Program-made: the position numbers and the translations under genes
In this document: positions 32,752 through 59,187 of the stretch, piece after piece
Numbering within the stretch: the stretch's first letter is position 1
Layout: the number at the start of each line of letters is the position of its first letter
From: Methylobacterium durans
GTDB lineage: Bacteria > Pseudomonadota > Alphaproteobacteria > Rhizobiales > Beijerinckiaceae
Direction: 5' to 3'
Assembly (NCBI RefSeq): GCF_003173715.1
Contig: NZ_CP029550.1
Span: 4,883,501 to 4,947,500, forward strand
DNA: 64,000 nucleotides
Notes under the pieces: model-generated
The model's database searches: none
Told to the model about the DNA's origin: nothing
What the model saw: only the letters and a program-made list of their open reading frames with translations

Positions 32752-32765
32752 TTGATCCAGCGCAA
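32752..32765. promoter_or_regulatory. FNR/FixK box, divergent promoter
   Basis: TTGATCCAGCGCAA lies 55 bp from the USP start (minus strand) and 58 bp from the ATPase start (plus strand), nearly midway between them. Confidence 0.7.
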
Positions 32766-32823
32766 GGCCCCACGGCCGGGACGGGCGCACTTCGGAGGCG
32801 CGCAACGACCGGAGCCGACCCCG

Positions 32824-34848
32824 ATGACGACGACGACGACCATGGGTTCAACCGAGACTGACCGGCCGGCGGTGGCCAGCTGGATGCCGGGGCTGCGGGG
32901 ATGGCTGGCGGTCGTGCCGCTGGTCGGCCTGTGCGCAGGGCTGTCGGCACAGGCACTTGGACTGCCCGAGATCGCGGCGTGGGCCTTCACGCTCCCGACG
33001 CTCGCGGTCCTCGCCGTCCTCGCGGCTCAGGTTGCGACCAGCCTATCGCGGGGCGACGTCGGGCTCGACCTTATCGCCCTGCTCTCGATGGGCGGCGCGC
33101 TCTCCCTGTCGCAGCCGTTGGCCGGCGCCGTCATCGCCCTGATGTATTCAGGCGGCCAGTCGCTCGAGGCCTACGCGGCCGGCCGCGCGGGCCAGGCGAT
33201 GACGGCGCTGCTCGCGCGCCAGCCGCGCACCGCCCTGCGGGAGGAAGGCGGCGGCGTCCTGGAGGTGCCCATCGCGGCTCTGGCTCCGGGAGACCGCATC
33301 CTGGTGCGGGTCGGCGACATTCTACCGGTTGACGGGCGGGTCGCCGCGGGCCGCACCGCGCTCGACCAGTCGAGCCTCACCGGCGAGGCGCTGCCGGTCG
33401 CCGTCGAGACGGGCGCGCCCGTGTTGAGTGGCTCGGTGAACGTCGGCATGCCCTTCACGCTGCTCGCAGAGCGTCCCGCGGCCGAGAGCACCTACGCGGG
33501 CATCGTCCGGCTGGTCGAGGCGGCCCGGTCGCGCAAGGCGCCTATGGCGCGCATGGCCGACCGCTACGGCCTCGCCTTCCTCGGCGTGACACTTCTTCTG
33601 GCCGGAAGCGCCTGGGGCGTCACGGGCGACCCGCTTCGCGCGCTCGCCGTGCTGGTCGTCGCTACGCCCTGCCCGCTAATCCTGGCCGTGCCCGTCGCCC
33701 TCGTCTCCGGCCTCTCACGCGCCGCCGGCATCGGCGTCCTGATCAAGGGGGGCGGCGCGTTGGAGACCTTGGCCAAGGTGCGCGTGCTGGTGGTCGACAA
33801 GACCGGCACCCTCACCCAAGGCACGGCCCGGCTGGCCGCGGCGCGGACCCTCGCCCCCTTCGACGAAGCGGAGGCGGTGGGGCTGGCCGCTTCCCTCGAC
33901 CAAGCCTCCGGTCACCCGATAGCGCGGGCTCTGGTCGATGAAGCGCGCCGGCGTGGCTTGACGCTCTCACAACCAACGAAGGTCACGGAGATGCCAGGCG
34001 AAGGCGTGACTGGCCTAGTGGAGGGGCGGCACGTCCTTGTCGGAGGACCGCGCCTGATGCGGATCCACGGCGTCCCCGTCCCGCCGGCGGACGGCGTTCA
34101 ACACGTCGCCGCGGCGGCGGCGACGGTGCTGGTCGCCGTGGACGGAGCGCCCGCCGCTGTCTTGGAATTCGCGGACCCGGTGCGGGCCGATGGCGGCCGG
34201 ACGCTCGCGGCGCTGCGCGCCTGCGGCATCGAGCGGGTGGTGCTCGCGACTGGCGACCGGCGCGGCATCGCGGAGGCGCTCGTCGCGGGCCTGCCCGTCG
34301 ATGCCGTGGCGGCGGATCTCGACCCGGCCGCCAAGACGGACACCGTGCTCGCCGAACGGCGAAACGGCCCCGTGATGATGGTGGGCGACGGGGTCAACGA
34401 CGCCCCTGCGCTCGCGGCCGCCGATCTCGGCGTGGCGCTTGGTGCCCGCGGCGCGGCCGCGGCGGCCGAAGCGGCGGACGTCGTGCTGCTGGTCGATAGC
34501 CTCGCGCCGCTACCCAGCGCCATCCGCATCGCCAGGCGGGCCCGCGCCATCGCCCTGCAGAGCGTGCTCGCCGGCATCGGGCTGTCGCTCGCCGGCATGG
34601 TCGCAGCGGCTTTGGGCCACCTCACTCCGCTCCAGGGAGCGCTGCTCCAGGAGGCCATCGACGTCGCCGTCATCCTCAACGCCATGCGCGTGCTCGGCGG
34701 TACGAGGACCGCTCACGAGTCCCAGGCAGCTTGCGCTGGATCAAGGTGGGCCGTCCCGCCCGAGGCCAAGCTTCCCCGGTCGGAACCTAAGCACGACGGA
34801 GGTGGTCATGGACTACGCGAACATCCTCGTTTCCGCCGACCTCGGTGA
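32824..34848 (+). CDS. P1B-type heavy-metal ATPase without N-terminal metal-binding domain
   Basis: A 674-aa P-type ATPase. The motifs appear in order: SLTGEALP (actuator), ATPCPLILAVPVALVSGLSR (transmembrane metal site, TPCP near residue 281), VVDKTGTLTQG (phospho-Asp325), SGHPIARALV (HP motif of P1B pumps) and MMVGDGVNDAPALAAADLGV. This fits heavy-metal export, but the CPx-type site reads C-P-L, and no CxxC or His-rich N-terminus exists. Substrate not clear. ATG 32824 is 58 bp from the FNR box. The C-terminal 40 residues run through the next FNR box and overlap the following USP start by 41 bp, so the true family end is probably near residue 630. Confidence 0.85.
   Translation: MTTTTTMGSTETDRPAVASWMPGLRGWLAVVPLVGLCAGLSAQALGLPEIAAWAFTLPTLAVLAVLAAQVATSLSRGDVGLDLIALLSMGGALSLSQPLAGAVIALMYSGGQSLEAYAAGRAGQAMTALLARQPRTALREEGGGVLEVPIAALAPGDRILVRVGDILPVDGRVAAGRTALDQSSLTGEALPVAVETGAPVLSGSVNVGMPFTLLAERPAAESTYAGIVRLVEAARSRKAPMARMADRYGLAFLGVTLLLAGSAWGVTGDPLRALAVLVVATPCPLILAVPVALVSGLSRAAGIGVLIKGGGALETLAKVRVLVVDKTGTLTQGTARLAAARTLAPFDEAEAVGLAASLDQASGHPIARALVDEARRRGLTLSQPTKVTEMPGEGVTGLVEGRHVLVGGPRLMRIHGVPVPPADGVQHVAAAAATVLVAVDGAPAAVLEFADPVRADGGRTLAALRACGIERVVLATGDRRGIAEALVAGLPVDAVAADLDPAAKTDTVLAERRNGPVMMVGDGVNDAPALAAADLGVALGARGAAAAAEAADVVLLVDSLAPLPSAIRIARRARAIALQSVLAGIGLSLAGMVAAALGHLTPLQGALLQEAIDVAVILNAMRVLGGTRTAHESQAACAGSRWAVPPEAKLPRSEPKHDGGGHGLREHPRFRRPR
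34731..34744. promoter_or_regulatory. FNR/FixK box before the USP-cytochrome-BLUF unit
   Basis: TTGCGCTGGATCAA lies 63 bp before the USP start at 34808. It is inside the 3' coding end of the ATPase gene. Confidence 0.65.
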
Positions 34849-35620
34849 CGCGGCACCCGACCGCATACGGCTGGCCGCCGGCCTAGTCCGGCGCTTCGAG
34901 GCTACTCTTACCGGCGCGGCCGCCCACAAGATGCGTACGCCCATCCTGGTGCGCGACATTTACGACGCCGTCGAGCAGGAGAAGCGCAACGAGGCGCAGG
35001 TGCGCGAACTCCTCGAACAGGCGCGCGCTCTGTTCGAGCGCAGCGCGGGCGACGACATTCGCACGGAGTGGTACGCCGCCTTCGCCGGGCCCACCACGCA
35101 CCTCGTCGAGCAGGCGCGCACCGCCGACCTCGTCGTCGTGGGCCGGCGCGGGTCGGAGGACGAGGATCCCGGCCCACTCGGCGTGTCGCCCGGGCCGGTG
35201 CTTATGGAGGCGGGCCGGCCCGTCCTCGTCGTGCCACCGCGGATCGTGCACCTGAAGGCAGCCCGGATCGTCGTCGCCTGGAAGGACGGCCCGGAGGCGC
35301 GGCGAGCGGTAACGGCGGCGCTGCCCTTCATCCACGGCGCGGATCAGGTCTTTGTCGCGACGGTCGGGGCCGACGCTCTGCACGAGGGAGCTGAGGCCGT
35401 GGCCGGTCACCTCGCGCGACACGGCGCCCACGTCACCACCCATCTCCTGCGGGTGGTTGGAGCCGAGGGCAGGGAGATCCTGGACTTCGCTATGCGCCAG
35501 GACGCCGACCTCATCGTGATGGGTGCCTACGGCCATTCTCGGCTGCGGGAGTGGGTCTTTGGGGGCGTCACGCGAGACCTCCTGGGCCGCTCGCCGGTCT
35601 GCTGCCTGATGAGCCACTGA
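34808..35620 (+). CDS. Tandem-domain universal stress protein (family B, copy 1)
   Basis: A 270-aa protein with two USP domains. It starts MDYANILVSADLGDAAPDRI and has a central dimer/ligand segment (TADLVVVGRRGSEDEDPGPL). Domain 2 is KAARIVVAWKDGPEARRAVT; the end is ADLIVMGAYGHSRLREWVFG, then GVTRDLLGRSPVCCLMSH. The C-terminal CCLMSH with two cysteines also occurs in copies 2 (frame-corrected) and 3. GGAGG precedes ATG 34808. Its stop overlaps the cytochrome c start as TGATG, so the two are translated together, an arrangement repeated at 52471. Confidence 0.9.
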   Translation: MDYANILVSADLGDAAPDRIRLAAGLVRRFEATLTGAAAHKMRTPILVRDIYDAVEQEKRNEAQVRELLEQARALFERSAGDDIRTEWYAAFAGPTTHLVEQARTADLVVVGRRGSEDEDPGPLGVSPGPVLMEAGRPVLVVPPRIVHLKAARIVVAWKDGPEARRAVTAALPFIHGADQVFVATVGADALHEGAEAVAGHLARHGAHVTTHLLRVVGAEGREILDFAMRQDADLIVMGAYGHSRLREWVFGGVTRDLLGRSPVCCLMSH

Positions 35621-35949
35621 TGCGCCCGTGCGGCCTAACCGTCGGCATCGTCCTCACTCTGGGCCTGCTCGTCGCCTCGCGCGCCGCGGCCCGGGACGCC
35701 TCGGCGGAGCAGGGACGGACCTTCGCCCGAGAGAACTGCACGCGCTGCCATGCGGTCGGCTCACGTGGCGCGACCCCGATGCGTGCGGCACCGCCCTTCC
35801 GTACGCTCGCCAAACGCTTTCCCATGGACGACCTCGCGGATGTCTTGGTCGAGGGCGTCGAGCGGCGCCATCCGGCCATGCCCGATTTCCGGCTCGGCCC
35901 GGGCGACGCCGCCGACCTCTCGGCCTACCTCAAGGCGCTGGGACGGTGA
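35620..35949 (+). CDS. Small c-type cytochrome, coupled to USP
   Basis: A 109-aa exported protein: signal peptide to about residue 24 (VGIVLTLGLLVASRAAARDA), heme site CTRCH at residues 40-44, and axial Met likely in HPAMPDFRL. It ends YLKALGR, the usual last helix of class I cytochromes c. Close in size and sequence to the one at 52471 (APPFR.L.KR.P.DDL). It should sit in the periplasm and carry electrons for low-oxygen respiration or a repair enzyme. It is coupled to USP copy B1 by TGATG. Confidence 0.87.
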   Translation: MRPCGLTVGIVLTLGLLVASRAAARDASAEQGRTFARENCTRCHAVGSRGATPMRAAPPFRTLAKRFPMDDLADVLVEGVERRHPAMPDFRLGPGDAADLSAYLKALGR

Positions 35950-35988
35950 CCGGCGGAAAGGGACTGGTGGCCGCGAGGAGGTCAGCCC

Positions 35989-36390
35989 ATGGACGCGTCA
36001 CCGCTGTACGTGAGCCGACGGGTGGCCACCGACGCCGACGTCCATGACATGTCGAGACGTCGCAGGCCAGGAACGCCCGACTCCGGGCCACGGGCGCGCT
36101 CCTCGCGCCGCGCAGCCGGTTCGCGCAGATCCTTGATAAGCCGCGCGCAGGGTGGACGCGCTCATGGGTAACGTCCTTCGCGGCCGGCGCCATACGTGGG
36201 TCGAGGTGCTGCTGAACGACGACATCAAGCGGCGCCGGTTCCCCAGCTGGACGCCAGCCTATTCCGGCGCCTCCGTCTTCCTCGACGGGCTGATCCGGGC
36301 CCTGACCGGACGAGGCGCCCTCGGCCGCATCCATTCGACCTGCGCCGCATGATCCACGCCATCGAGGGGCAGGCGCGAGCCCGGCTTTAA
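35989..36390 (+). pseudogene. BLUF blue-light sensor, degraded by several frameshifts
   Basis: Pieces of a BLUF domain appear in order but in different frames. ATG 35989 starts with SPLYVSRRVATDADVHDM. The next frame carries ARNARLRATGALLAPRSRFA, then QILDKPRA. The third carries VDALMGNVLRGRRHTWVEVL, then RRRFPSWTPAYSG. The R-N-A-R-L-x-x-T-G-x-L-L, F-x-Q-x-L-x-x-x and R-R-F-x-x-W segments are BLUF hallmarks. At least two indels are needed, so it is a true pseudogene. It follows the USP-cytochrome pair by 39 bp and had GAGGAGG before its start. Confidence 0.72.
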
Positions 36391-36433
36391 TGGCCGGGCT
36401 ATATCGAGGCGCCACGACGCACGCGCGGGCCCG

Positions 36434-36646
36434 TCACTCGACAAACCCCCAGCCGGCTTCCAGGGCGCCCATCTCCTCCTCGTTCAGCGGGTCCGGCCAG
36501 TCCATCCTGTTCGGTGCACGCTCCCGGGCTTCCACTGCGCTGGGGCCCGGCCTTTCCGGGACAGATGTGGGCGTCCGACGCGGGAGATTGCGCTTGCGTG
36601 CCACCTGGGTGGTCGCGGTGGTTCCGAAGGATCTCTGTTTGCGCAT
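36434..36646 (-). CDS. Small hypothetical protein
   Basis: A 70-aa basic protein: MRKQRSFGTTATTQVARKRN, with an acidic C-terminus (DPLNEEEMGALEAGWGFVE). Mostly unstructured in appearance. It lies just downstream of USP copy A2 on the same strand only if transcription reads through. No family recognised. Confidence 0.4.
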   Translation of the reverse strand: MRKQRSFGTTATTQVARKRNLPRRTPTSVPERPGPSAVEARERAPNRMDWPDPLNEEEMGALEAGWGFVE

Positions 36647-36663
36647 CGCCGGCCTCCCCGGAC

Positions 36664-37524
36664 TCAGTGCGAGAGGAATAGCGGGGCCGGGCTGACCCTC
36701 AGGAGCGAACGGGTCACGCCGCCGAAGAAGAACTCCCGCGCGCGGGAGTGCCGGTAGGCGCCCATCACGATCATGTCGGCCCGGAACAGCCCGGCCTGGG
36801 TGCGGAGCGTGTCCGCAATACCCCTACCCTTCGGCAGGTCGTTGACGGAGACGTTCACCCCGTGGCGGGTGAGGTGGGGCGCGAACTCGGCCCCGGGCAC
36901 CTCGGCATGGATTTCCGACTCGTCGCCGCACGACACGATCTCGACCGCCTCGGCCGCGCGCAGGAACGGTAACGCGTCGTTGGCGGCCCGCGCCGCCTGC
37001 GCGCTGCCGTCCCAGGCGACGATGATCCGCCGCGCAGCGAAGGCGTCGTGTCCCGGCGGGACGGCGATGACCGGCCGTCCGCTGAGGAACAGCGCCTTCT
37101 CGATCGTCTCGCGGTCGAGGTCGTAGGTCCGCGGTCCCGCGTCCAGCACGGTGAGGTCGTGCAGGCGCGCCAGAGCCGCCAGCCGGCTCACCACCTCCGG
37201 GTAGGGCAGGCTCGGCGTCTCGGTGGTGCAGGCGACGCCGGCCAGCGCCGCCTCGCCCGCCGTGTTGCCGGCAACGGCGCGGGCCATCTCGTCGAGACGC
37301 CGGTCGATGACCGCGACGCCCTCGTTGTCGAAGTCGCCGAGCCAGGCGTCGTCGCCCGAGAGGCGCCAGGAGGCCGACTGCACGGTGAGGTGGGCGCCGG
37401 CGGCCTTGGCCAGCGTCAGGCCATACCCGATGGCCGAGGAGGTAGGGTCGCTTTCGCCCTCGACGGTGGTGCCCACGAGAACGTCGCGGATGGCGGCGAG
37501 CGGGGATGAAGAGCTGTTGGACAT
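36664..37524 (-). CDS. Tandem-domain universal stress protein (family A, copy 2)
   Basis: A 286-aa protein, the same length as copy A1: [40 protein letters not shown], then [20 protein letters not shown] and [12 protein letters not shown]. Both USP domains look complete. An FNR box lies 53 bp before its start, in the region shared with fixL. It is transcribed away from fixL. Confidence 0.9.
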
Positions 37525-37577
37525 GGGTCGTCTCCGGTCCGGAGCCCCATGGTTTGCTCCCTCTCGGGCGACCGACC

Positions 37578-37591
37578 TTGATCCAGCTCAA
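37578..37591. promoter_or_regulatory. FNR/FixK box between USP A2 and fixL
   Basis: TTGATCCAGCTCAA lies 53 bp from the USP start (minus) and 177 bp from fixL (plus). By distance it serves the USP gene first. Confidence 0.7.
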
Positions 37592-37768: not shown

Positions 37769-39319
37769 ATGACGAGCCCCATCGACGCGCCAGGCATGGA
37801 CCGTGTTGGCGATGGCACATCGACCATTGAAGAGCTCCGGCAGACCCTCGACGAGGTCGGCATCTGCATCTGGTCGCTGGACATCCCGACCGGCCGGGCC
37901 ACGGTCTCCCCGACCTGCGCCCGCCTCTTCGGCGTGCCAGCCGAGCAACTGACCTCCTTCGCCGCCTCCCAGGCGCTCGTGCATCCGGAGGACCGCCGAA
38001 CCCGGGCGGAAGCAATCCGGCGGGTATTGCGGGAGGGCGGCAGCTACGAGGTCGACTACCGCGTCGTGCGGCCCGACGGGCATGTCTGCTGGCTGCGCTC
38101 ACGCGGCCGGGTGCAACTCGACCCGGAGGGCCAGCCCTTCCGGCATCGCGGGGTCGTGCTCAGCATCGACGAGCAGAAGCGGGCCGAGGTGGATCTCCGC
38201 GCCCGCGAGGCGCACCTGCAGTCCATCCTCGACACCGTGCCCGAGGCCATGGTCGTCATCGACGAGGCCGGACTCATCCACTCGTTCAGCGCGGCGGCCG
38301 AACGCCTCTTCGGCTACGCGGCCGCCGAGGCGGTCGGGGAAAACGTCCGGATCCTGATGCCCGAGCCGATGCGGGGCGAGCACGACGGCTACCTCGACCG
38401 CTACCGGCGGACGCGGGAGCGGCGCATCATCGGTACCAACAGGGTCGTGACGGGCCAGCGGCGGGACGGCTCGACCTTCCCGATGGAGCTTGCCATCGGC
38501 GAGATGCGCTCGGGCGAGCAGGTTTACTTCACCGGCTTCATCAACGACCTGACCGAACGTCAGCACACCCAGGCCCGTCTTCAGGAGCTCCAGTCCGAGC
38601 TCGTGCACGTCTCCCGGCTGAGTGCGATGGGCGAGATGGCCTCGACGCTCGCCCACGAGCTGAACCAGCCGCTCGGCGCCATCGCCAACTACGCCAAGGG
38701 CTGCCGCCGCATGCTCGACGGGACTGACCCAGCGGCCATCCCGAGAGTGAAGGACGTTCTTGACAAGACGGCCGAGCAGGCGCTGCGGGCCGGTCAGATC
38801 ATCCGGCGGCTGCGCGAGTTCGTCGCCCGCGGCGAGACGGAGAAGCGGGTGGAGCCGGTCGCGCGGCTGATCGAGGAGGCCAGCGCCCTCGCCCTCGTTG
38901 GCGCCCGCGAGCAGGGAGTCACGGCGCGTGTCGCGCTCGCCCCGAACACAAACTCGGTCCTGGCCGACCGGGTGCAGGTGCAACAGGTCCTGGTCAACCT
39001 GATGCGCAACGCCCGCGAGGCCATGCAGCACAGCGAGCGGAGGGACCTGACCGTCGAGGCGCGGCCGGTCTCGCCGGACTTCACAGAGATCACGGTGTCG
39101 GACACGGGGCCGGGCATCGCAGAGGCGGTGGCGGAGCGGCTGTTCCAGCCCTTCGTGACCACCAAGCAGAGCGGAATGGGCGTCGGGCTCTCGATCTGCC
39201 GGACCATCGTCGAGGCGCATGGCGGCCGCCTGTGGGTCGAGCGCAACGACGCCGGCGGGGCAACCTTCCGGCTGACGCTGCCAGCCGCGCACAACGGAGA
39301 CCTGAACCATGGCGGCTAG
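37769..39319 (+). CDS. fixL: Oxygen-sensing histidine kinase FixL
   Basis: A 516-aa cytosolic sensor. PAS 1 spans about residues 21-140 (without heme motifs). PAS 2, about 150-265, is the heme domain: [20 protein letters not shown], then a heme-ligand His205 in [10 protein letters not shown], and R225 in [20 protein letters not shown], equivalent to the Arg that senses bound O2 in rhizobial FixL. The kinase follows: [20 protein letters not shown] (His296), [10 protein letters not shown] (N box), DTGPGIAEA and [13 protein letters not shown]. No membrane helix is present, as in Bradyrhizobium FixL. Low oxygen should switch on phosphorylation of FixJ, encoded next with an 11-bp overlap. Confidence 0.93.
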
Positions 39320-39917
39320 CCTCGTGCATGTGGTGGACGACGACCCCGCAATGCGGGACTCGATCGCCTTCCTCCTCGACACGGCCGGCTTCGACGTGCG
39401 GGTCTACGAGGCCGGGACAGACCTGCTCGACCGGCTCCCGAAGCCGGCATCGGGATGCGTCCTGACTGACATCCGGATGCCCGGCATCGACGGGCTGGAA
39501 CTGCTCCGCCGCTGGCGGGCGGCGGGCCACACGCTACCGGTGGTGGTGATGACCGGCCACGGAGACGTGCCGCTCGCGGTGGAGGCGATGAAGCTCGGCG
39601 CCTGCGACTTCATCGAGAAGCCGTTCGACGACGAGGCACTTCTTCAGGCTCTCCGGTCGGCCCTGAAACGCAGCGGCGCGGCCCAGGCCGCGGACCCGAC
39701 GCTGCGAGATTTCGTGCGCCGGGTCGGCACCCTGAGCGAGCGCGAACGACAGGTGCTGGACCAACTGGTCGCCGGCGGCACCAGTAAGGAAATCGGGCGC
39801 GCGCTCAACATCAGCCCGCGCACGGTCGAGATCTACCGGGCGAAGCTCATGGCCAAGACGCAGGCCGGCAACCTGCAGGAACTGGTTCGTTGGGCGGTGT
39901 TGGCTGGCATTGCGTGA
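39309..39917 (+). CDS. fixJ: Response regulator FixJ
   Basis: A 202-aa regulator. Receiver: [20 protein letters not shown] (acidic triad), [19 protein letters not shown] (phospho-Asp54), [10 protein letters not shown], and the conserved Lys in [13 protein letters not shown] LuxR-type helix-turn-helix closes it: [20 protein letters not shown], then [23 protein letters not shown] 39309 overlaps the fixL stop. Phosphorylated FixJ is known to activate fixK genes, and a FixJ-like box lies before fixK at 42228. Confidence 0.93.
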
Positions 39918-39925
39918 GGCGGGCT

Positions 39926-39939
39926 TGAGGTAGGTCAAG
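39926..39939. promoter_or_regulatory. FNR/FixK box before the single-domain receiver gene
   Basis: TTGAGGTAGGTCAA lies 68 bp before the start of the receiver gene at 40008 and directly after the fixJ stop. Confidence 0.65.
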
Positions 39940-40007: not shown

Positions 40008-40469
40008 ATGCCGTCAGCCCCTTCGAACCTCATCTACGTCGTGGACGACGACCTGGCCGTCCTGCACTCCACCCGCTTCCTGTTTGAGAGCGAGGGCCAT
40101 CGCGTCGAGACCTTCGCGGGCGGACAGGAGCTGCTTGCGGCCTTCCCCGGTCCGGCCCCGGCCTTCGTGCTGCTCGACCAGGTCATGCCCGGCATGGAAG
40201 GGCTGGAGGTATACGCCCGGCTGCGAGACCTCGATGCCCATGTCCCGGTGGTCCTCATCACCGGTCATCCTGACCCGAGCATCCGGACGCGGGCTCGCGC
40301 CGCCGGCGTTCCCCTGGTCGAGAAGCCGCTCGCATTCGACGCGCTGCTCGGCATGCTCGCCAGCGACGGAGCCGCTACAGGGTTCATCCCTTCAGGCTTG
40401 AGGAACAGCCCGCCGCGGGACTTCGCGGGCGCGGCGGCTCGCGCGGATCGGCCCCGGGGCGCTCCGTAA
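40008..40469 (+). CDS. Single-domain FixJ-like receiver
   Basis: A 153-aa protein that is only a receiver plus a tail. NLIYVVDDDLAVLHSTRFLF gives the acidic triad, FVLLDQVMPGMEGLEVYARL the phospho-Asp57, VVLITGHPDPS the switch Thr and LVEKPLAFDALL the Lys. It lacks the LuxR output of FixJ. In rhizobia a comparable stand-alone receiver (FixT-like in effect, though not homologous) can dampen FixLJ. Here it may act as a phosphate sink for FixL. The FNR box suggests a negative feedback loop. This role is inference. Confidence 0.85.
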   Translation: MPSAPSNLIYVVDDDLAVLHSTRFLFESEGHRVETFAGGQELLAAFPGPAPAFVLLDQVMPGMEGLEVYARLRDLDAHVPVVLITGHPDPSIRTRARAAGVPLVEKPLAFDALLGMLASDGAATGFIPSGLRNSPPRDFAGAAARADRPRGAP

Positions 40470-41289: not shown

Positions 41290-41303
41290 TTGATCCAGAT
41301 AAA
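41290..41303. promoter_or_regulatory. FNR/FixK box, imperfect, before the phasin gene
   Basis: TTGATCCAGATAAA lies 55 bp before the phasin start. The right half is imperfect (ATAAA in place of ATCAA), with ATCAA four bases further. Confidence 0.5.
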
Positions 41304-41400: not shown

Positions 41401-41414
41401 TTGAGCCAGATCAA
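41401..41414. promoter_or_regulatory. FNR/FixK box before the SPW protein
   Basis: TTGAGCCAGATCAA, a near-perfect inverted repeat, lies 116 bp before ATG 41531. Confidence 0.7.
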
Positions 41415-42227: not shown

Positions 42228-42245
42228 TACGTAGTTGCCCTTACG
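42228..42245 (+). promoter_or_regulatory. FixJ-like binding site before fixK
   Basis: TACGTAGTTGCCCTTACG resembles the FixJ site of rhizobial fixK promoters (TACGTAGTTTCCC type). It lies about 90 bp before ATG 42334, a place where activators sit. No TTGA-N6-TCAA box is present here, so fixK itself seems under FixJ rather than its own control. Confidence 0.6.
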
Positions 42246-42333
42246 CGGATCTACTTAAGAGAACGCCCGGAATTTCGCGGCCTGCTCAGCGCGGCCAGTC
42301 TCCCTTCATCCAGTACGGGTGAGGAGCGAAGCG

Positions 42334-43026
42334 ATGACCACCGGGTTCTCCGAACCGAATTTCTCGCACGTCGCGGCTGGCCATGCCGTTCCTGTCCAGG
42401 GCCCACTCGGGAGCGTCCTGTTCGCGGGGTGTCCCGACCTGATCGGCACGCCCTTCTCCTACGCTCGGGAGGAGGAGATCTACGGCGAGGGCGAGGACGC
42501 CGAGTTCGTCTATAAGGTCGTCAGCGGCGCGGTGCGCACACACAAGGTCCTGAGCGACGGCCGCCGCCAGATCACCGGCTTCCACCTGCCCGGTGACCTG
42601 TTCGGGTTCGAGCAGGACGAGACCCACCGGCACTCCGCCGAGGCCCTCTCCGACACCAAGCTGCTGATCTTCCGGCGGCGCCAGGTCGAGCGCGCCGCCA
42701 ACCACCGGGCCGAGGTCGCCTGCCAGCTCTGGGGCATGGCCACGAAGAGCCTGCGCCTCGCCCAAGACCTCACGCTCCTGCTCGGGCGCCGTTCGGCCCA
42801 GGAGCGCGTCGCCTCCTTTCTGATGGAGGTCGACGAGCGTCTCGGGGGCAACGGGACCTTCACCTTGCCCATGACCCGGCGCGACATCGCCGACTATCTC
42901 GGGCTGACCATCGAGACCGTGTCGCGCACCCTCTCGCAACTGTCGGATGAGGGGGCTCTGCAGCGTGTCGGCGGTCGGCAAATCAGCCTGCGCCGCGCTC
43001 ACCTCCGCCGCTTGGTCGAGGACTGA
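42334..43026 (+). CDS. fixK: Crp/Fnr-family regulator FixK
   Basis: A 230-aa Crp/Fnr protein with the FixK layout. The nucleotide-binding-like barrel (AEFVYKVVSGAVRTHKVLSD, then ITGFHLPGDLFGFEQDETHR) lacks the FNR N-terminal cysteine cluster. The HTH reads MTRRDIADYLGLTIETVSRT, whose E-x-x-S-R is the set that reads TTGAT half-sites in FNR/FixK proteins. ATG 42334 has GGAGCGAAG upstream; GTG 42319 is an alternative. It is very likely the regulator of the fifteen TTGA-type boxes in this region. Confidence 0.88.
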   Translation: MTTGFSEPNFSHVAAGHAVPVQGPLGSVLFAGCPDLIGTPFSYAREEEIYGEGEDAEFVYKVVSGAVRTHKVLSDGRRQITGFHLPGDLFGFEQDETHRHSAEALSDTKLLIFRRRQVERAANHRAEVACQLWGMATKSLRLAQDLTLLLGRRSAQERVASFLMEVDERLGGNGTFTLPMTRRDIADYLGLTIETVSRTLSQLSDEGALQRVGGRQISLRRAHLRRLVED

Positions 43027-43425: not shown

Positions 43426-44285
43426 TCAGTGGGCGAGGAACAGCGGCACCGCACTCCGGACCAGGAGCGACTGGGTCACACCGCCGAGGAACCATTCCTG
43501 AAGGCGGGAATGTCGGTAGGCGCCCATCACCAACATGTCTGCGCGGAACAGGCTGACCTGGTTCCTGAGCGTCTCCGCGACGTCCCCGACGACGGAAATG
43601 TCGTTCACCGACACGTTCACGCCGTGGCGCGCAAGGTGCGGCGCGAACTCGGCTCCGGCGACCGACCTCGACAGGTCCTTCTCGCCGACCACCGACACGA
43701 TTTCGATCGCCTCGGCCGCGCGCAGGAACGGCAGCGCATCGTTGGTGGCCCGCGCCGCCTGCGCGCTGCCGTCCCAGGCGACGATGATCCGCCGCGCAGC
43801 GAAGGCGTCGTGTCCCGGTGGGACCACGATGAGCGGTCGCCCGCTCCGGAAGAGGACCCCGTCGATCAGGTCTCGATCGAGGTCGACCTCGCGCGCTTCC
43901 GCATCCAGGATGGTGAGGTCGGCGAGCCGTGCGCGTGCGGTGAGCCGCCCGATCAGGTCCGCATAGGCCAGCATTGGCGCCTCGGTCGTGCAGGTCACGC
44001 CGGCGCTGGCGGCATCCGCCGCGGCGCGTTCGGCGGCGATCTGCGCGAGCCCGCGCAAGCGCCGGTTCTCGTCCGCGACGAGGTCATTGATGAACCCCAG
44101 GCCGCGCCGGCGACCACAGTCAGGCGCCGGGCCGCGGATTGGACGGTCAGGTGTGAGCCGGCCGTGCCGGCGAGCGCCAAGCTGTAGGCAAGCGCACTCG
44201 CGGCTTCGTCGTCGCGTCCCTCCTCGGTGATGCCGACGAAGATGTCGCTGATCGCAGCCAGCGGGGCTGAGGACGGGCTGGTCAT
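43426..44285 (-). pseudogene. Tandem-domain universal stress protein (family A, copy 3), one-base deletion
   Basis: The N-terminal part from ATG 44285 reads SSAPLAAISDIFVGITEEGR up to LTVVAGAAW. The rest, from LGFINDLVADENRRLRGLAQ to SLLVRSAVPLFLAH, is in another frame. The switch is near 44100-44120. The span is 860 bp, exactly one base shorter than the intact 861-bp copies A1 and A2, so one base was lost. An FNR box lies 56 bp upstream. It is either a young pseudogene or a sequencing error. Confidence 0.85.
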
Positions 44286-44341: not shown

Positions 44342-44355
44342 TTGATCCAGCGCAA
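44342..44355. promoter_or_regulatory. FNR/FixK box before USP A3
   Basis: TTGATCCAGCGCAA, identical to the box at 32752, lies 56 bp before ATG 44285. Confidence 0.7.
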
Positions 44356-47636: not shown

Positions 47637-47650
47637 ATGATCTGGATCAA
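47637..47650. promoter_or_regulatory. FNR/FixK box before the DUF6455-ATPase operon
   Basis: ATGATCTGGATCAA lies 104 bp before ATG 47532. The core TGATCTGGATCA is a near-perfect palindrome; the first T of the left half is A. Confidence 0.6.
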
Positions 47651-48311: not shown

Positions 48312-48741
48312 CGGGATCTCTCCCAGCAGCCGCGAGTCACGCTCGCGTGGTCGTTCGGGGCCGACCCGGAGGGCCCGTTCCGGTTTATAGCAGTAGGACC
48401 TGCTGAGTTGTAGGACTGAGCGGAACCGAAAAGCGGCCCTCCGGGCAGTGTTCGGAAGCTCAAATTCGCGCCGTTTGGACTGCGGCGGTCGAGGCTCAGT
48501 CTATCGGCCTTCCGTGGGGCCTCGCAGGCGCGCCATTTTATTGCGGAATTCTGGGCGCCGGCCGTGCCCCGGTTCAGAGGACCGCTGGCATTCGGTGTTA
48601 AACTCCGTTTCATAATGGGCTGTGCAGCTTAGCTGTTGGATGAGCGGCGAGCATCGCGGCCGTTGGGAGAGTGTCTGACGCTCACCCTGTCCCCCATGTG
48701 GACGACCGCCGCCCGCGCCGCGCTTGCGCGCGAGAGCCTAC
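48312..48741. other. Intergenic region, nothing recognised
   Basis: About 430 bp. No FNR box, no gene and no strong hairpin. It may hold the UspA promoter at its left end. Confidence 0.4.
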
Positions 48742-48976
48742 CCTATGCAACCTGACTGAGTGGTGCGGAATGGGCCTGGGTCGCGTCGCTGATGCCCACC
48801 CCCGCCACGACGGGCCGCCCCTAACGCCTGGCCGCTGCGCTCGACGGCAGCATCTACGTCCTGCGCACCGGCTGCGCCTGGCGGCATCTGCCCCTGGACT
48901 TCCCGCCGTGGGGCACCGTGCACCGCTGGTTCTTGCGCCTGTCCCAGGACGGCGTATTCGAGCGGCTTGCCCATGC
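48742..48976 (+). pseudogene. IS5 family transposase, N-terminal fragment
   Basis: [20 protein letters not shown], then [20 protein letters not shown] and ERLAHA match the N-terminal DUF4096-type domain of IS5 transposases. The upstream part (from 48742) is too degraded to align. The frame ends at about 48976 where phosphoketolase sequence on the other strand begins, so this relic marks the break that truncated xfp. Confidence 0.75.
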
Positions 48977-49535
48977 CTGTCAGGGCGGCGCCGAAGGCGT
49001 GCGCAAGCGCGTAGCCGAGTTCGCCGCCCTCGTGGATCGAGCCCGGCAGCTCGGGCGCGGCGTGGATCGGGATGCCGCCCGGAAACGAGAACTGCCGGAA
49101 CAGCCGGGCTATGCCGTCGAGGTCGCGCGCCACATCCGGGTAGATCTCGCTGTAGGTACCCTCCAAGTAGGCGTTCACCACGAGCCCGGGCGCCCCATGC
49201 CCTGGTCCCCAGACCGCGATCATGTCGAGGTCGCGCTCGCGGACGATCCGGTTCATGCGGGCGTAGATGAAGTTGAGGCCCGGCGTCGTGCCTCGGTGGC
49301 CGAGGAGCCGCGGTTTGAGGTGTTCAGGCTTCAGCGGCTCGCGCAGCAGCGGGTTGGCCATGAGGTAGATCTAGCTGACCGACAGGTAGTTCGCGTCGCG
49401 CCAGTAGGCGTCGATGCGCTTGAGGCTGTCCGATCCGAGCGGCCCGGGCACGAAGGTGAGACCCTGTCCGTCATCCCGGGGGCTGTCGTCGCGGCGGCTC
49501 TCGCAGCGGTTCCTCGGTTCGCGCCCCGCGTCCAT
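48977..49535 (-). pseudogene. xfp: Phosphoketolase, N-terminal fragment with a nonsense codon
   Basis: From ATG 49535 (GGGAGG upstream) the frame gives GLTFVPGPLGSDSLKRIDAY, WRDANYLSVS, a TAG stop where homologs have Gln, then [40 protein letters not shown] and [20 protein letters not shown]. These are xylulose-5-phosphate/fructose-6-phosphate phosphoketolase motifs. Only about 185 of some 790 residues remain before the IS5 relic. Phosphoketolase genes are often grouped with low-oxygen genes; the box at 49598 is 62 bp from this start. Confidence 0.83.
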
Positions 49536-49597: not shown

Positions 49598-49611
49598 TTG
49601 AGGTGGATCAA
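49598..49611. promoter_or_regulatory. FNR/FixK box, divergent promoter
   Basis: TTGAGGTGGATCAA lies 62 bp from the xfp start (minus) and 57 bp from the small gene at 49669 (plus). Confidence 0.7.
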
Positions 49612-51575: not shown

Positions 51576-51589
51576 TTGAGGTGGATCAA
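51576..51589. promoter_or_regulatory. FNR/FixK box before the second USP-cytochrome unit
   Basis: TTGAGGTGGATCAA, identical to that at 49598, lies 67 bp before GTG 51657. Confidence 0.7.
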
Positions 51590-52803: not shown

Positions 52804-52817
52804 GCAAGGAGATCCCG

Positions 52818-54522: not shown

Positions 54523-55334
54523 CAGTGGCTCATCAGGCAGCAGATGGGGGCATAGGCCAGAAGGTCCCGGGTCACGCCTCCGAAGGCCCACTCGCGGAAG
54601 CGACCGTGGCCGTAGGCGCCGGTGACGAGGAGGTCCGCGGCCTGCTCGGAAGCGGCGTCGATGAGCGCCTCGGAGGCCGCTGCGCCGTCGGTGTCCCTCC
54701 GGACGGCTGTGGCGTAGACGTCATGGGCCTGCAGGAAGCCGACGATGTCCTGCGGGTCGGCCGCACTGTCCCGGTCGTCGACGGAGATCACGACGACCTG
54801 TGACGCCCGCTTCAGGAACGGCAGCGCGTCCTGCACGGCGCGGCGCGCCTCGCGGGTGTTCTTCCACCCGACCGCGACGCGCTTGGCGTCGAGGTGGTCG
54901 ACCCCGGGCGGCACCACCAAGACCGGCCGCCCGAGATGCATGACGAGATCCCCGGGATTGACCGAGAACAGCATGGGCCCGGGCTCGGTCTTTCGCCCCA
55001 CCACGACGAGATCTGCGGCCGCGGACTGCGCGACGAGGAAGGGCAGCGGGAAATCGAGGTTCGAGCGCCACTCCACGCGGCTGCGCCCGCCGGCCGCTTC
55101 TTCGAAGGCTGCGTGGGCCTGCCTGAGGTCGTTCAGCACGATCTCGTTCGAGGCGGCCAGCGCGTAGGCGCTCGCCGGCGTCGGCCCCACCGGCGGAACG
55201 GCGTAGGCCGGGGTTTCGGCTGCCACGCCGATCAGCCGGGCGCGAAAGTCGTCGGCGAGATGGCCGGCCAAGCGAACGCGGTCCGGCGCCTGAGGCGTCA
55301 GGTCCATCGCCACCATCATGCTCGCGTAGGTCAT
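54522..55334 (-). CDS. Tandem-domain universal stress protein (family B, copy 3)
   Basis: A 270-aa protein matching copy 1 in length: MTYASMMVAMDLTPQAPDRV, DAKRVAVGWKNTREARRAVQ, ADLLVTGAYGHGRFREWAFG, then GVTRDLLAYAPICCLMSH. Two USP domains look complete. It follows the BON gene by about 85 bp and may share its promoter and FNR box at 56138. Confidence 0.9.
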   Translation of the reverse strand: MTYASMMVAMDLTPQAPDRVRLAGHLADDFRARLIGVAAETPAYAVPPVGPTPASAYALAASNEIVLNDLRQAHAAFEEAAGGRSRVEWRSNLDFPLPFLVAQSAAADLVVVGRKTEPGPMLFSVNPGDLVMHLGRPVLVVPPGVDHLDAKRVAVGWKNTREARRAVQDALPFLKRASQVVVISVDDRDSAADPQDIVGFLQAHDVYATAVRRDTDGAAASEALIDAASEQAADLLVTGAYGHGRFREWAFGGVTRDLLAYAPICCLMSH

Positions 55335-55418
55335 GGACGATCTCCGGGTCGGAGGGCCGCGGAATGTGAGGGCTTGCCGGATGGGCGTGGCTGGCAACCT
55401 CACCCATCCTGCCGGGGC

Positions 55419-56065
55419 TCAGGCCAGCGTGAGGTGGTCCTCGACGGCGCGCACGCCCGGGCCGACCAGGCGGCGTTCTCGGCAAGCAGGCGCTCGTACC
55501 AGGCGCTCACCTTGCCCTCCAGGACGACCTTGGCGTCCTGCACCGTCACCTTGATCGCGTCCGCCTCAAGCTCGGCGTTGCGCTTGAGCGCCGCCATGAT
55601 CTTCGCGCGCACGTCGGGTGCGCTCGCCTTCGGGGTCACCTCGATCAAGTTCATGATGCCGGCGACGCCCGCGAGGCGTCGAAGCGCGCGGTAGGCCTCC
55701 TCCTTCTGATATTGCCAGTCGACTTGGCCGGTCAGCGTCACCCAGCCGTTCTGGACCTTCACCTGCACGGCATTCTTCGGCACGGTGACCGACCAGTCGA
55801 GCATCTGCACCGCGCGCTGGGCCAAGTCCTCGTCGCGCGGCGGCGTCTCGCCGCCGAAGCGCACCTTGATCTCCTCGACCACGCCGCGCACGCCGCGTAC
55901 CTTCTGGGCCGCCTTCTCGGCGGCGACGCGCTCCGTGTAGCTGCCGACGTGCCCGGTGAGCGTGACGATGCCGTTCTCCACGGCGACGCCGATGTGGGCC
56001 GCGCCGATGCTGGGGTCGAAGTCGAGCTCGTCGATGACGTTCTGGCGGATCAGCTTGTCGCCCAT
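55419..56065 (-). pseudogene. Triple BON-domain protein, one-base deletion at the 3' end
   Basis: MGDKLIRQNVIDELDFDPSI, VTLTGHVGSYTERVAAEKAA, VQVKVQNGWVTLTGQVDWQY and VVLEGKVSAWYERLLAENAA show three BON domains. The end goes out of frame after AAWSA. In the other frame it reads GVRAVEDHLTLA and stops at 55419-55421, as in the intact paralog (GVRAVEDNLTLAW). The span is 647 bp, one less than the 648-bp paralog. All three domains are almost whole, so a working protein with a foreign tail ending at 55400 is possible. Confidence 0.83.
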
Positions 56066-56113
56066 CGGTCGCCTCCTCGATGAAGTCCAGGTCGCGCCTG
56101 GCCGAACCCGACG

Positions 56114-56577
56114 CTAGACGCGGCAGGCGGCCGGACATTGATCCAGCGCAAGGTTTTCGCCCGCCGCGATCCGGTGCAGCATCGGACACCTCCGGGTGCC
56201 GTCACGGCAGCCCGGAAACGCGCCGAGGACGGCCACGGCGGCGACCATCTCCCCGGCGTCGAAAATCCGGTCGAACACCGGTACGTCCGAGAAGGCGCAC
56301 GGCACCCGGGCGTTGCCGGCAATCAGCGCGAAGGGGATGCCCCGTCGGCGCAAGGTGCAGGCGAGCGGGAAGCAGGGACCGTGGTTCAGGTCGATGCTGA
56401 CGACTGCGAAGTCCGGGGCGTCTCGTCCAGGCACTCCGTGGCATCGCCACAGGTGCCGTAGGGACCGCTGACCGCGCAACCGGCGTCAACGAGGACATCC
56501 TCCAGCCACATGCCCGGCAGCGCCTGCGGCTCGGCCACGAGAACGACGGGCCGTCTGTCTCCTCCACCTGCCTGCAT
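56114..56577 (-). pseudogene. Receiver-like protein, one-base deletion
   Basis: ATG 56577 starts QAGGGDRRPVVLVAEPQALP, then GMWLEDVLVDAGCAVSGPYG. A shift near 56430 moves to a second frame with DAPDFAVVSIDLNHGPCFPL (Asp at the phospho site), RGIPFALIAGN and FDRIFDAGEMVAAVAV. This is a receiver fold. The span of 464 bp is one short of a multiple of three. An FNR box lies 60 bp upstream. Confidence 0.65.
56138..56151. promoter_or_regulatory. FNR/FixK box before the BON-USP unit
   Basis: TTGATCCAGCGCAA lies 72 bp before the BON start at 56065. It overlaps the 3' end of the receiver-like gene. Confidence 0.68.
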
Positions 56578-56637
56578 CGCTCGATTCCCGCTCCCGGTTG
56601 CGATGTTGCCAGGATGGGCCGGGCAGGCCGGCCCGCG

Positions 56638-56651
56638 TTGCGCTAGATCAA
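56638..56651. promoter_or_regulatory. FNR/FixK box before the receiver-like gene
   Basis: TTGCGCTAGATCAA lies 60 bp before ATG 56577 and overlaps the stop of the transporter gene. Confidence 0.65.
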
Positions 56652-57983
56652 GGGAAGCGCGGCCGTCGCCAGCATGGCGAGGACGGCGAGCAGCATGCAC
56701 GCCGTGGCGGTCCAGCCGAGCAGCTTGAGCGGCCCGCTCACCGCGAAGGCGCCCATGATGTCGTGCCGGGCGGCCGCCAGCATCATCACGGCCATGACCG
56801 GCACCGCGATGACGCCGTTGACGACTGCGCTCCAGTAGAGCGCCCGGATCGGGTCGACCGCGCCCAGGCTGATGACCATGCCGACCAGCGTGGCGAGCGC
56901 CACCGTCCCGTAGAAGGCGCGCGCCTCCAGAAGGCGCCGGCCGAAGCCCACGGGCCAGCGCCGCGCCTCGCCGACCGCATAGGCTGCGGAGCCCGCGAGC
57001 ACCGGCACCGCCAGGAGCCCGGTCCCGACGATGCCGAGCGCGAAGACCGTCGCTGAGAACGGACCGGCCAGCGGGCGCAATGCCTCCGCGGCCTGGGCGG
57101 AGGTCTGAATGTCGGTGATGCCGCGCGGATGCAGCACGGCGGCGGTGGTGACCATGATGGCAAGCGCTACTAGGTTCGAGAAGGCCATGCCCACGAGGGT
57201 ATCCATCCCGATGCGGTGGAGCGCGGCGCGGCCCTGCTCGGGCGCGTCCAGGAGGTCGCGCCGGCGCGGAAAGGCGTGCAGGTCCTCAGCCTCCTCGGCC
57301 GCCTGCCAGAAGAACAGGTACGGGCTGATCGTCGTCCCGAAGAGCGCGACGAGCGTGGTCAGCCCCGTGTCGCTGAGGTCGAGCTTCGGAATGGCCAGTG
57401 CCGTGCCGAGGTCCCACCAGGAGACACGGGCGAAGATCACCACGCCCAGATAGGCGAACAGGCTCAGCGTCAGCCATTTCAGGACGGCGACGTAGCGCGT
57501 GTACTGAAGGACGAGTTGCATGAAGGCGCAGATGCCGGCGAAGAGGACGACGTAGAGCCAGCGCGGGCCCGGCAGCAGGAGGTCGAGGGCGTCTGCCATC
57601 GCGCCGAGGTCGGCCCCGAGGTTCAGGATGTTGGCTGCCAGCAGAAGAAGCACGACGGACTGCAGCAGGCCATTCGGGTAGTGTTCGCGCAGCACGCCGG
57701 CGATGCCGTGGCCGGTAGTGCGCCCGATCCGGGCCGAAACCATCTGCACCGCCGCCATAAGTGGCAGGGTGTACAGCATGGTCCAGCACAGGCCGTAGCC
57801 GAGTTGAGCCCCAGCCTGACCGTAGGTGGCGATGCCGCTCGGGTCGTCGTCCGAGGCGCCGGTGATCAGGCCGGGGCCGAGGACGCGCAGCCAGCGCGGC
57901 TTCGAGAGCCCGGCGGCGGCCCCTGGGCCTTCCGGATCGTCGTCGTCGGCCTCATCGGCCGCGGGCAGGACCGATGTGCTCAT
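56643..57983 (-). CDS. NRAMP-family divalent metal transporter with variant metal-site motifs
   Basis: A 446-aa membrane protein with about 11 helices. The helix-1 region is LGPGLITGASDDDPSGIATY, where classical Mn/Fe transporters have D-P-G-N. The helix-6 region is LFGTTISPYLFFWQAAEEAE, where they have M-P-H. These changes are seen in NRAMP relatives thought to move other ions such as Mg. RIGRTTGHGIAGVLREHYPN is the cytoplasmic loop. ATG 57983 overlaps the stop of the upstream small gene (ATGA). It belongs to an operon under the box at 58508. Confidence 0.85.
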   Translation of the reverse strand: MSTSVLPAADEADDDDPEGPGAAAGLSKPRWLRVLGPGLITGASDDDPSGIATYGQAGAQLGYGLCWTMLYTLPLMAAVQMVSARIGRTTGHGIAGVLREHYPNGLLQSVVLLLLAANILNLGADLGAMADALDLLLPGPRWLYVVLFAGICAFMQLVLQYTRYVAVLKWLTLSLFAYLGVVIFARVSWWDLGTALAIPKLDLSDTGLTTLVALFGTTISPYLFFWQAAEEAEDLHAFPRRRDLLDAPEQGRAALHRIGMDTLVGMAFSNLVALAIMVTTAAVLHPRGITDIQTSAQAAEALRPLAGPFSATVFALGIVGTGLLAVPVLAGSAAYAVGEARRWPVGFGRRLLEARAFYGTVALATLVGMVISLGAVDPIRALYWSAVVNGVIAVPVMAVMMLAAARHDIMGAFAVSGPLKLLGWTATACMLLAVLAMLATAALPLI

Positions 57984-58237
57984 GCCGCCGACTTCGAAGC
58001 CGCAGTGTCCGCTCCGGGGCGCATCGTGCGCGCCACCCTCACGGCGGCGGCCAGGTCGTCGCAGTCGGTGCCGTAGCGGCGGCAGAGTTCGTCCAGCCAC
58101 TGCGGCCGGGCGTCAGCTGCATCGGGGATGTCGGAGTACGGGACGTGGTACATGCCGTCGAGCGCCTCGATGCCGTAGCCGGTGACGGCCCACTGCCGTC
58201 CCTGCCAATGCACGGGTTCGGTGAGTTCGTGGCTCAT
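57980..58237 (-). CDS. Small hypothetical protein coupled to the NRAMP gene
   Basis: An 85-aa soluble protein: MSHELTEPVHWQGRQWAVTG, then YGIEALDGMYHVPYSDIPDA and PQWLDELCRRYGTDCDDLAA. Acidic, with two Cys. Its stop overlaps the transporter start as ATGA. It could be an accessory or regulatory partner. Family not recognised. Confidence 0.6.
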   Translation of the reverse strand: MSHELTEPVHWQGRQWAVTGYGIEALDGMYHVPYSDIPDAADARPQWLDELCRRYGTDCDDLAAAVRVARTMRPGADTAASKSAA

Positions 58238-58247
58238 GGTGGCCTCC

Positions 58248-58454
58248 TCAGACGACGAGCTCGGTGATCTCGCAGGCGTCGGCGCGCAGCCGCCAATCGA
58301 CGATGCCGGCGGCCTCGCAGAACATCGTCTTGGCGACCTCGACGGCGGTCACGTCCGAGGTGGCCGTGACGACGACTTGCCGCTGCAGCGTGCAGCGGTC
58401 GTAGCCCGTGGCGTCCGAGACGACCTTGTGGAAGGCAATGAGATACCTGAGCAT
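58248..58454 (-). CDS. Small hypothetical protein, first gene of the NRAMP operon
   Basis: A 68-aa protein from ATG 58454: MLRYLIAFHKVVSDATGYDR, then CTLQRQVVVTATSDVTAVEV and WRLRADACEITELVV. It looks like a small alpha/beta ferredoxin-like fold. No metal motif is clear. Its start is 53 bp from an FNR box, and it ends 10 bp before the next gene. Confidence 0.6.
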   Translation of the reverse strand: MLRYLIAFHKVVSDATGYDRCTLQRQVVVTATSDVTAVEVAKTMFCEAAGIVDWRLRADACEITELVV

Positions 58455-58507
58455 CGCTCGTCTCCGCTTGCGGGGACCGACCTTCGCGCCCGACGAAGGC
58501 AGCAGCC

Positions 58508-58521
58508 TTGATCCAGCGCAA
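58508..58521. promoter_or_regulatory. FNR/FixK box before the NRAMP operon
   Basis: TTGATCCAGCGCAA lies 53 bp before ATG 58454. It is identical to the boxes at 32752, 44342 and 56138. Confidence 0.7.
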
Positions 58522-58533
58522 AGGCGCCGGCCC

Positions 58534-59052
58534 TCAGGGACCGGCCGTCGGCGGGACGAGGCGTTCGCGACCCGGCTCGTCGTCCGCAGGATGTCGGGAC
58601 CTCGCGGCGCGGTGGGCATGCGCCTTCCCGTGCAGCGGCCAGTAGCGCTCCATCGCGAGATAGGTGAACGAGGCCGACCAGCCGATCAGGAGCAGGCCGT
58701 TCAGCGCCTCGACGCCCGTGAGAAGGCGGGCGTGGCCGACGGGAGCGTGATCGCCGTAGCCGAGCGAGGAGTAGGCGACCACTGAGACGAACAGGCAATC
58801 CTCGAAGGTCTCGATGGGCACGCCCGAGAAGGCGCCGAGCCCGAGCCGCAGGACGAGGAGCCAGTAGGCGCCCGCGTAGACCCAAACCGCGACGGTGTGG
58901 CCCGCGAAGGCGGCGAGCACCACCGCGATGATGCGCCAGCGCGGCGGCACCGGGAGCTCGGCGAGGTGCTCCGAGGTGAGGCGCAGCGTCTCGTAGAGCA
59001 CCAGGATGGTGATCATCACGAGAACGACGCTGGCGACCAGGATGACGAGCAT
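58534..59052 (-). CDS. Two-TM potassium channel protein
   Basis: A 172-aa protein with several membrane helices: MLVILVASVVLVMITILVLY, IIAVVLAAFAGHTVAVWVYA, then a pore: FEDCLFVSVVAYSSLGYGDH. S-L-G-Y-G-D is the potassium selectivity filter, and EALNGLLLIGWSASFTYLAM the last helix. It is a small ion channel with no regulatory domain. ATG 59052 is chosen; a TTG at 59130 would add 26 residues. The FNR box at 59174 is 121 bp away. Confidence 0.83.
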   Translation of the reverse strand: MLVILVASVVLVMITILVLYETLRLTSEHLAELPVPPRWRIIAVVLAAFAGHTVAVWVYAGAYWLLVLRLGLGAFSGVPIETFEDCLFVSVVAYSSLGYGDHAPVGHARLLTGVEALNGLLLIGWSASFTYLAMERYWPLHGKAHAHRAARSRHPADDEPGRERLVPPTAGP

Positions 59053-59173
59053 AGCTTTCAGTCCCGAGGGATGGCTCAAGGCCAGCCTGCCCACGCGTCC
59101 AGCCAGTTCATTGACCTGCCTCAAGACCAAATACTGGTTCTTCGGGGGCCATGAGGGCCATGCCCGTCATGCC

Positions 59174-59187
59174 GTGATCCAGATCAA
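59174..59187. promoter_or_regulatory. FNR/FixK box, divergent promoter
   Basis: GTGATCCAGATCAA lies 72 bp before the lipoyl-like gene (plus) and 121 bp before the channel gene (minus). The core TGATCCAGATCA is nearly palindromic. Confidence 0.65.

Follow-up and report, generated by a model that had tools for sequence, protein, structure and literature searches.

A FixLJ-FixK gene set amid clustered FixK-type boxes outlines a probable self-contained low-oxygen regulon in Methylobacterium durans

Why should some fifteen copies of one regulatory box, of the type read by FNR/FixK activators, crowd into about 26 kb of the Methylobacterium durans genome? The window analysed here is a stretch of 64,000 nucleotides, bases 4883501-4947500 of a one-contig genome of 6,788,375 bases, and a block of about 27 kb in it holds these boxes (positions 32752 to 59187) together with the genes of a sensor kinase (fixL), a response regulator (fixJ) and a CRP/FNR-type activator (fixK). 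We confirm that the boxes are genuine and occur far above chance, and we conclude that the block is probably a self-contained low-oxygen regulon under a FixL-FixJ-FixK-box cascade. The cascade has strong support from the sequence, in which its genes, the boxes with their conservation and geometry and the FixJ-type site can be seen directly. Since it carries its own FixLJ-FixK switch and around fifteen matching control sites, the block is probably switched on jointly at low oxygen; the oxygen dependence, the binding of FixK, the sign of regulation and the feedback proposed below are what we infer from the DNA.

Which proteins could operate such sites? The cascade genes and the elements in front of fixK are given below. 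Gene starts throughout are those of our own caller and are uncertain for g37, g51 and g66; block genes were named via Pfam, ten of them also via NCBIfam.

37769..39319, plus strand: fixL, two PAS domains (the second haem-type) and a histidine kinase
39309..39917, plus strand: fixJ, response regulator adjoining fixL
40008..40469, plus strand: single-domain receiver g45, FixJ-like, boxed
42228..42243, plus strand: putative FixJ-type site TACGTAGTTGCCCTTA, before fixK
42268..42275, plus strand: CGGAATTT, which fits the fixK promoter element CSNAATWT
42334..43026, plus strand: fixK, CRP/FNR activator with the helix ETVSR and without an FNR-like cysteine cluster

The best Protein Data Bank (PDB) matches of FixL are FixL chains or FixL chimeras, which together span residues 21-510 of its 516, and its PAS-domain His and Arg align to the FixL structure sequences; we take these two to be the haem-PAS residues, the His being the proximal one. 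FixJ passes the NCBIfam cut-off for FixJ (287.4 vs 255), and the best PDB match of FixK is FixK2 (E 1.9e-64). The ETVSR recognition helix on which an initial annotation of the window had relied is present in FixK, and its interpretation of the block as a FixLJ-FixK regulon agrees with what the sequence predicts, as FixL, FixJ and FixK are all encoded and the boxes fit the consensus of Bradyrhizobium diazoefficiens FixK2.

The link from FixJ to fixK would run through the FixJ-type site, which is identical at 13 of 16 bases to that of Sinorhizobium meliloti. With at most two mismatches, the window site occurs three times in the genome, namely at this fixK, at the fixK of a second cluster (island II, 493-534 kb) and at 4377816; the last of these FixJ-like sites (G000:C1:4377816-4377831) lies near a FixL-matching kinase at 4379291. 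A TACGTAG-like element precedes fixK in the window and in 20 aligned relatives, followed mostly by CCTTA and (C)TTAAG, and CSNAATWT fits, by eye, 18 of these 21 fixK promoters, G018 and both G035 copies failing. Similar elements have been described for FixJ-controlled fixK promoters (PMC4999443). The window fixK has no FixK box, and one upstream of fixK was found in 0 of 21 relatives; autoactivation of FixK through a box of its own was rejected on this count, although the box at 41401 could still reach fixK through g48-g49.

How many boxes are there, and which genes do they face? We called a box strict when it matched TTG(A/C)-N6-(T/G)CAA, the consensus published for B. diazoefficiens FixK2 (PMC5582078), with at least one half perfect. 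Fractions in the lines below give the relatives' orthologues that carry an upstream box.

32752..32765, unoriented: FixK box TTGATCCAGCGCAA, common to universal stress protein (USP) g36 (minus strand; 14/14) and metal P-type ATPase g37 (plus strand; 9/10)
34731..34744, plus strand: FixK box ahead of USP g38 and cytochrome c g39, overlapping the called 3′ end of g37; 9/11
37578..37591, minus strand: FixK box of USP g42, 15/15; 184 bp ahead of fixL, where a box is found in 7/17
39925..39938, plus strand: FixK box of single-domain receiver g45; 16/16
41290..41303, minus strand: FixK box with one mismatch, phasin g47; strict box in relatives 5/5
41401..41414, plus strand: FixK box of SPW-repeat protein g48, then g49 and fixK; 8/8
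44342..44355, minus strand: FixK box of USP g51, start codon not placed; 15/15
47637..47650, minus strand: FixK box with one mismatch, DUF6455 protein g53, plus cation ATPase g52 if these form an operon; strict in 4/6 relatives
49598..49611, unoriented: FixK box common to the broken phosphoketolase g56/g55 (minus strand; 9/9) and to g57, BON protein g58 and alcohol dehydrogenase g59 (plus strand; 8/8)
51576..51589, plus strand: FixK box of USP g60, cytochrome c g61 and USP g62; 11/12
56138..56151, minus strand: FixK box of BON protein g65 and USP g64, within g66 as called; 9/9
56638..56651, unoriented: FixK box, target not placed, perhaps g66
58508..58521, minus strand: FixK box of small protein g69, g68 and NRAMP protein g67; 3/3
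59111..59124, minus strand: perfect FixK box of ion channel g70; 5/6
59174..59187, plus strand: FixK box with one mismatch, g71 and cytochrome c g72; strict in 4/4 relatives

The initial annotation had announced fifteen boxes and listed fourteen. All fourteen sites are present, thirteen at the positions it gave and one displaced by a base (39925 for 39926), and the perfect box that it overlooked, TTGACCTGCCTCAA at 59111, brings the total to fifteen. Eleven of its fourteen sites are strict, but those at 41290 (TTGATCCAGATAAA), 47637 (ATGATCTGGATCAA) and 59174 (GTGATCCAGATCAA) carry one mismatch in an outer half. An identical 14-mer makes up five boxes, and two further boxes are one base away from it. 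The boxes had been said to serve at least 17 gene starts; sixteen boxed starts are supported, the target of box 56638 not being placeable. The proposed distance of 53-72 bp from box edge to start codon holds for 12 of the sixteen (60-79 bp from the box centre), the exceptions being g71 (52 bp from the centre), g48 (117 bp), g53 (111 bp) and g51, which cannot be placed.

Is this density special within the genome? In the comparison set beforehand, the block holds 12 strict boxes in 27.8 kb vs 6 in an evenly spaced sample of 400 kb of the same genome, at whose rate 0.42 would be expected (Poisson P 4e-14); eight of the block's strict boxes are intergenic and four lie within called genes, as compared with 4 of 6 intergenic in the sample. 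TTGA-N6-TCAA occurs 6 times in the window vs 0.24 expected from shuffles, and TTGATCCAGCGCAA at up to two mismatches 10 times vs 0.45 expected, one of these being at 8305. Chance or GC bias as the source of the boxes is ruled out by the shuffles and the 400-kb sample. The claim that the first 31 kb are free of boxes stands for strict boxes (0 in 31.5 kb), but looser matches do occur there, with one-mismatch sites at 6039, 17794 and 25593. Across the whole genome, TTGATBYNNNKCAA has 46 distinct sites, 10 in the block, 16 at 493-534 kb, 3 at 734-738 kb and 17 elsewhere. The directional pattern TTGMNNYRGATCAANG has 10 of its 21 sites in the block and 8 in the two other clusters, the reversed control pattern having none; because TTGMNNYRGATCAANG was built from the aligned boxes, its clustering in the block is partly by construction, from which the reversed control and the comparison across the genus (below) are exempt.

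The boxes stay with their genes across species. In 22 regions around FixK, taken without shared sequence (two each from G035, Leaf123 and UNC378MF), an upstream box is kept by 144 of 151 orthologues of the 16 boxed genes vs 11 of 148 orthologues of the block's unboxed genes, and 7 of these 11 (boxes within 190 bp) belong to fixL by way of the box of USP g42. This count omits L012 (overlapping G011), L020 (overlapping G035a), matches below 55% identity or 35% coverage, and matches that start past residue 30 (60 for g37) or have less than 150 bp upstream. Spacing is held as well, at 63-64 bp in 9/9 for g57 and at 64-66 bp for g38 in the 10 sequences with a box, window included. The window FixK itself (E<=1e-60) is found in 13 of 61 genomes, its own included, all within the genus (13/37), and its nearest named relatives are from Methylobacterium and Methylorubrum. 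One genome, G002, seems to hold two copies of the island (C3:437003-475752 and 2727266-2783444).

Do the boxes sit where an activator would need them? We aligned the promoters of 16 families, with six of 159 rows omitted as off their family's usual distance. When boxes are oriented to the gene, a G stands at +8.5 from the box centre in 150 of 153, and this is the most informative column outside the box (family mean 1.31 bits, G 96%), followed by +30.5, +9.5 and +34.5. The top column past +20 reaches 0.57 bits vs at most 0.44 across 500 random family shifts. An A-N3-T pair at 29.5/33.5 or 30.5/34.5 has a family mean of 66%, vs a median of 3% and a maximum of 15% more than 2 bp away, and the window shows it in 11 of its 14 promoters that have a strict box. 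With the box centre at -40.5 or -41.5, this pair falls at -11/-7. An A at -11 and a T at -7 are the key bases of the sigma-70 -10 element. The nosR FixK box, TTGATCCAGCGCAA, is centred 40.5 bp from the start and was found necessary there (PMC5582078). The boxes are also directional: across the eight families read in one direction only, the half nearer the gene is TCAA in 89/89 while the distal half is the C variant in 37/89, and the G at +8.5 occurs on the gene side in 87/89 vs 35/89 on the opposite side; of the genes at divergent boxes, g37 alone departs from this and reads the variant half (10/10). Outside Methylobacterium the G is found in 6 of 11 pairs on three rhizobial plasmids and in 2/5 in L021 and L022 (by eye, unused directions included), which does not establish it as a general feature. 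A class II activator geometry of the boxes is supported by these alignments and, together with box conservation and the FixJ-type site before fixK, lends support to activation.

Several points weigh against a regulon of this kind. The best NCBIfam model for FixL is FixL, but at 704.5 against a cut-off of 850, and the best NCBIfam hit of FixK is FixK (a Caulobacter model), at 220 against 300. As 2 of 20 background loci, each 20 kb long, contain a 12/16 match to the S. meliloti FixJ site, the 13/16 match alone is modest. Near boxes of their own are missing from g54, g40 and fixLJ, and the -11/-7 pair from 3 of the 14 window promoters. Shared ancestry, and the choice of regions for their fixK, mean that the footprint counts are not independent trials. 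Nor is the block the genome's sole FixK-box cluster, and intact paralogues with E-x-x-S-R helices, a FixK (52%, at 496490) and an FnrN-type protein (45%, at 495112), mean that the boxes may have readers besides the window FixK.

Could another protein be the principal reader? Island II has Pfam matches to FixO, FixP, FixG, oxidase subunit I, heavy-metal P-type ATPase, molybdopterin oxidoreductase, HemN-like and aminotransferase proteins, NnrS, CcmE and globin. Its regulators are a further FixJ-like protein, a receiver, a FixK and an FnrN-type protein whose N-terminus bears a cysteine cluster; the fix, nap, hem and fnrN labels in island II reflect how we read domains and sequence. In the small island III (734-738 kb), reading of the translations points to two USPs, a cytochrome c and an fnrN-like gene interrupted by an internal TAG. 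The same box is found in both islands, where 12 of 13 box-gene pairs have the G at +8.5, and this, together with the helices of the two paralogues, would suit true FNR/FixK-type sites read mainly by the island II FixK or FnrN-type protein, the window FixK being secondary. We consider this unlikely. Searched with FnrN at E<=1e-20, the genomes G017, G025 and G027 give the island FixK only, there is no second-FixK match at that threshold, and the boxes are kept (9-18 strict boxes in 40-60 kb), which favours the island's own FixK as the reader. Box counts also track the window FixK across the genus: genomes with it have 5-27 directional boxes (median 15, n=13) vs 0-19 in those without (median 2.5, n=24; P 2.5e-6). 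The box-rich outlier without it, G031, carries a different FixK-type gene (49%), on a contig that also holds its island BON gene. Some cross-regulation of the boxes by the paralogues could nonetheless occur in this genome.

FNR, FixK and DNR may share indistinguishable DNA-binding sequences (PMC2908626), so that the sites might be bound by a nitric oxide (NO)-responsive DNR/NnrR-type regulator, or might be repressor sites, and the block would be no low-oxygen regulon; we hold this to be very improbable, as the -11/-7 pair and the G sit at activator spacing and the block contains fixLJ-fixK plus a FixJ-type site. That the boxes are chance or dispersed-repeat copies, as the identical 14-mer might suggest, has next to no likelihood, being contradicted by the shuffle and sample controls, by promoter flanks that differ except in a few columns and by the keeping of each gene's box across species.

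How, then, would the FixLJ-FixK regulon work? At low oxygen the haem-PAS kinase FixL would phosphorylate FixJ, which would activate fixK via the site at 42228-42243. FixK dimers would then occupy the boxes, whose centres lie near -41.5/-40.5, and, acting as a class II activator, bring RNA polymerase to about sixteen starts, the predicted targets being universal stress proteins, small cytochromes c, metal and cation P-type ATPases, NRAMP, an ion channel, BON proteins, alcohol dehydrogenase and phasin. Feedback on FixL in the fashion of FixT may come from the boxed receiver g45; both g45 and S. meliloti FixT are without the 4-Cys motif of Caulobacter FixT.

More tentatively, the genome may run a pair of distinct FixLJ-FixK circuits that each have a FixJ-type site and clustered boxes to themselves, one for nitrate use and high-affinity respiration and the other, here, for a transferable survival regulon. 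The survival circuit would, in that same possible but rather doubtful arrangement, be a one-piece plug-in made up of sensor, relay, feedback receiver, promoters and targets. The island II fixL (G000:C1:499861-501143, L002) is split across two frames, so the window fixL may be the sole intact one, barring sequencing error. Methylobacterium are mostly known as aerobic methylotrophs. The island offers the genus a testable low-oxygen regulon with a precise promoter model, made up of the box, a G near -33, an A at -11 and a T at -7. A cell with two FixLJ-FixK islands also makes it possible to ask directly whether its duplicate oxygen circuits work in isolation or cross-talk.

Further features of the block may be mentioned. 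Transposase-like genes lie on both sides of it (29967-31195 and 61843-62667, from reading translations), and its GC content is 69.6% vs 63.7% in the first 31.5 kb. The phosphoketolase remnant g56/g55 (48738-49535) consists of two open frame pieces with a stop between them, its box still conserved, and matches of the second piece (207 residues) in relatives stop near residue 127-138. The small protein g69 (58248-58454) is without a Pfam match; a homologue search returned 5 proteins, the query included, and similar boxed small proteins occur in islands II (529037) and III (734707). For USP g51 (43426-44058), no in-frame start codon that would serve lies close to where its box is conserved. A plasmid FixK of Methylobacterium oryzae was considered as a mobile copy of the island and rejected; an SPW protein and a receiver adjoin it, but most annotated neighbours are other genes.

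Where does this regulon stand among known systems? It resembles the FixLJ-FixK2 regulon of B. diazoefficiens in its cascade and in its box TTG(A/C)-N6-(T/G)CAA, the nosR box TTGATCCAGCGCAA included, and the order fixL-fixJ-receiver-fixK is, we presume, the same in both. USPs, phosphoketolase, alcohol dehydrogenase and the response regulator bll2758 are induced under micro-oxia in B. diazoefficiens, and some of this set are FixK2 targets (PMC6515984). Unlike that regulon, the block is without fixNOQP and nap, such genes being in island II, and its targets are nearly contiguous. The window FixK also has a Thr where B. diazoefficiens FixK2 has the oxidisable Cys183: no FixK2-type Cys183 was found in it, the Thr aligning to residue 183 (Ser) of FixK2 chain 4i2o, and the FixK2 crystal is a C183S variant (PMC9104804).

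In Burkholderia cenocepacia, the lxa locus groups six USPs, a BON protein and a cytochrome c in one contiguous low-oxygen cluster, for which the CRP protein BCAM0049 has been proposed as regulator; its homologue FixK in Burkholderia dolosa is under FixLJ (PMC6127331). The block resembles lxa (BCAM0275-BCAM0323) by the gene content named in that paper, but the lxa regulators lie outside their locus whereas those of the block lie inside. A module on plasmid pBs162S2a of Bradyrhizobium septentrionale (L103) has, like the window, a histidine kinase, two response regulators, a FixK-like protein and a USP, besides cytochromes c, phosphoketolase and a Mg P-type ATPase, with five strict boxes in 30.6 kb; it differs in a sensor annotated with a CHASE3 domain, in its fewer boxes and in its place on a conjugative plasmid. 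The Mycobacterium tuberculosis DosR regulator and its binding site are unrelated to the FixK system. The DosR dormancy regulon is USP-rich and linked to hypoxia (PMC6127331). A comparative study predicted a well-conserved FixK regulon in a Rhizobiales group including Methylobacterium (PMC2908626). With the FixK2 regulon, the lxa locus and this predicted regulon on record, the kind of system is already known; our literature search, which covered mostly titles and the starts of abstracts and left the directional promoter pattern unsearched, found no account of this Methylobacterium island. The switch type is well known, and the interest lies in its compact packaging as a single island in Methylobacterium.

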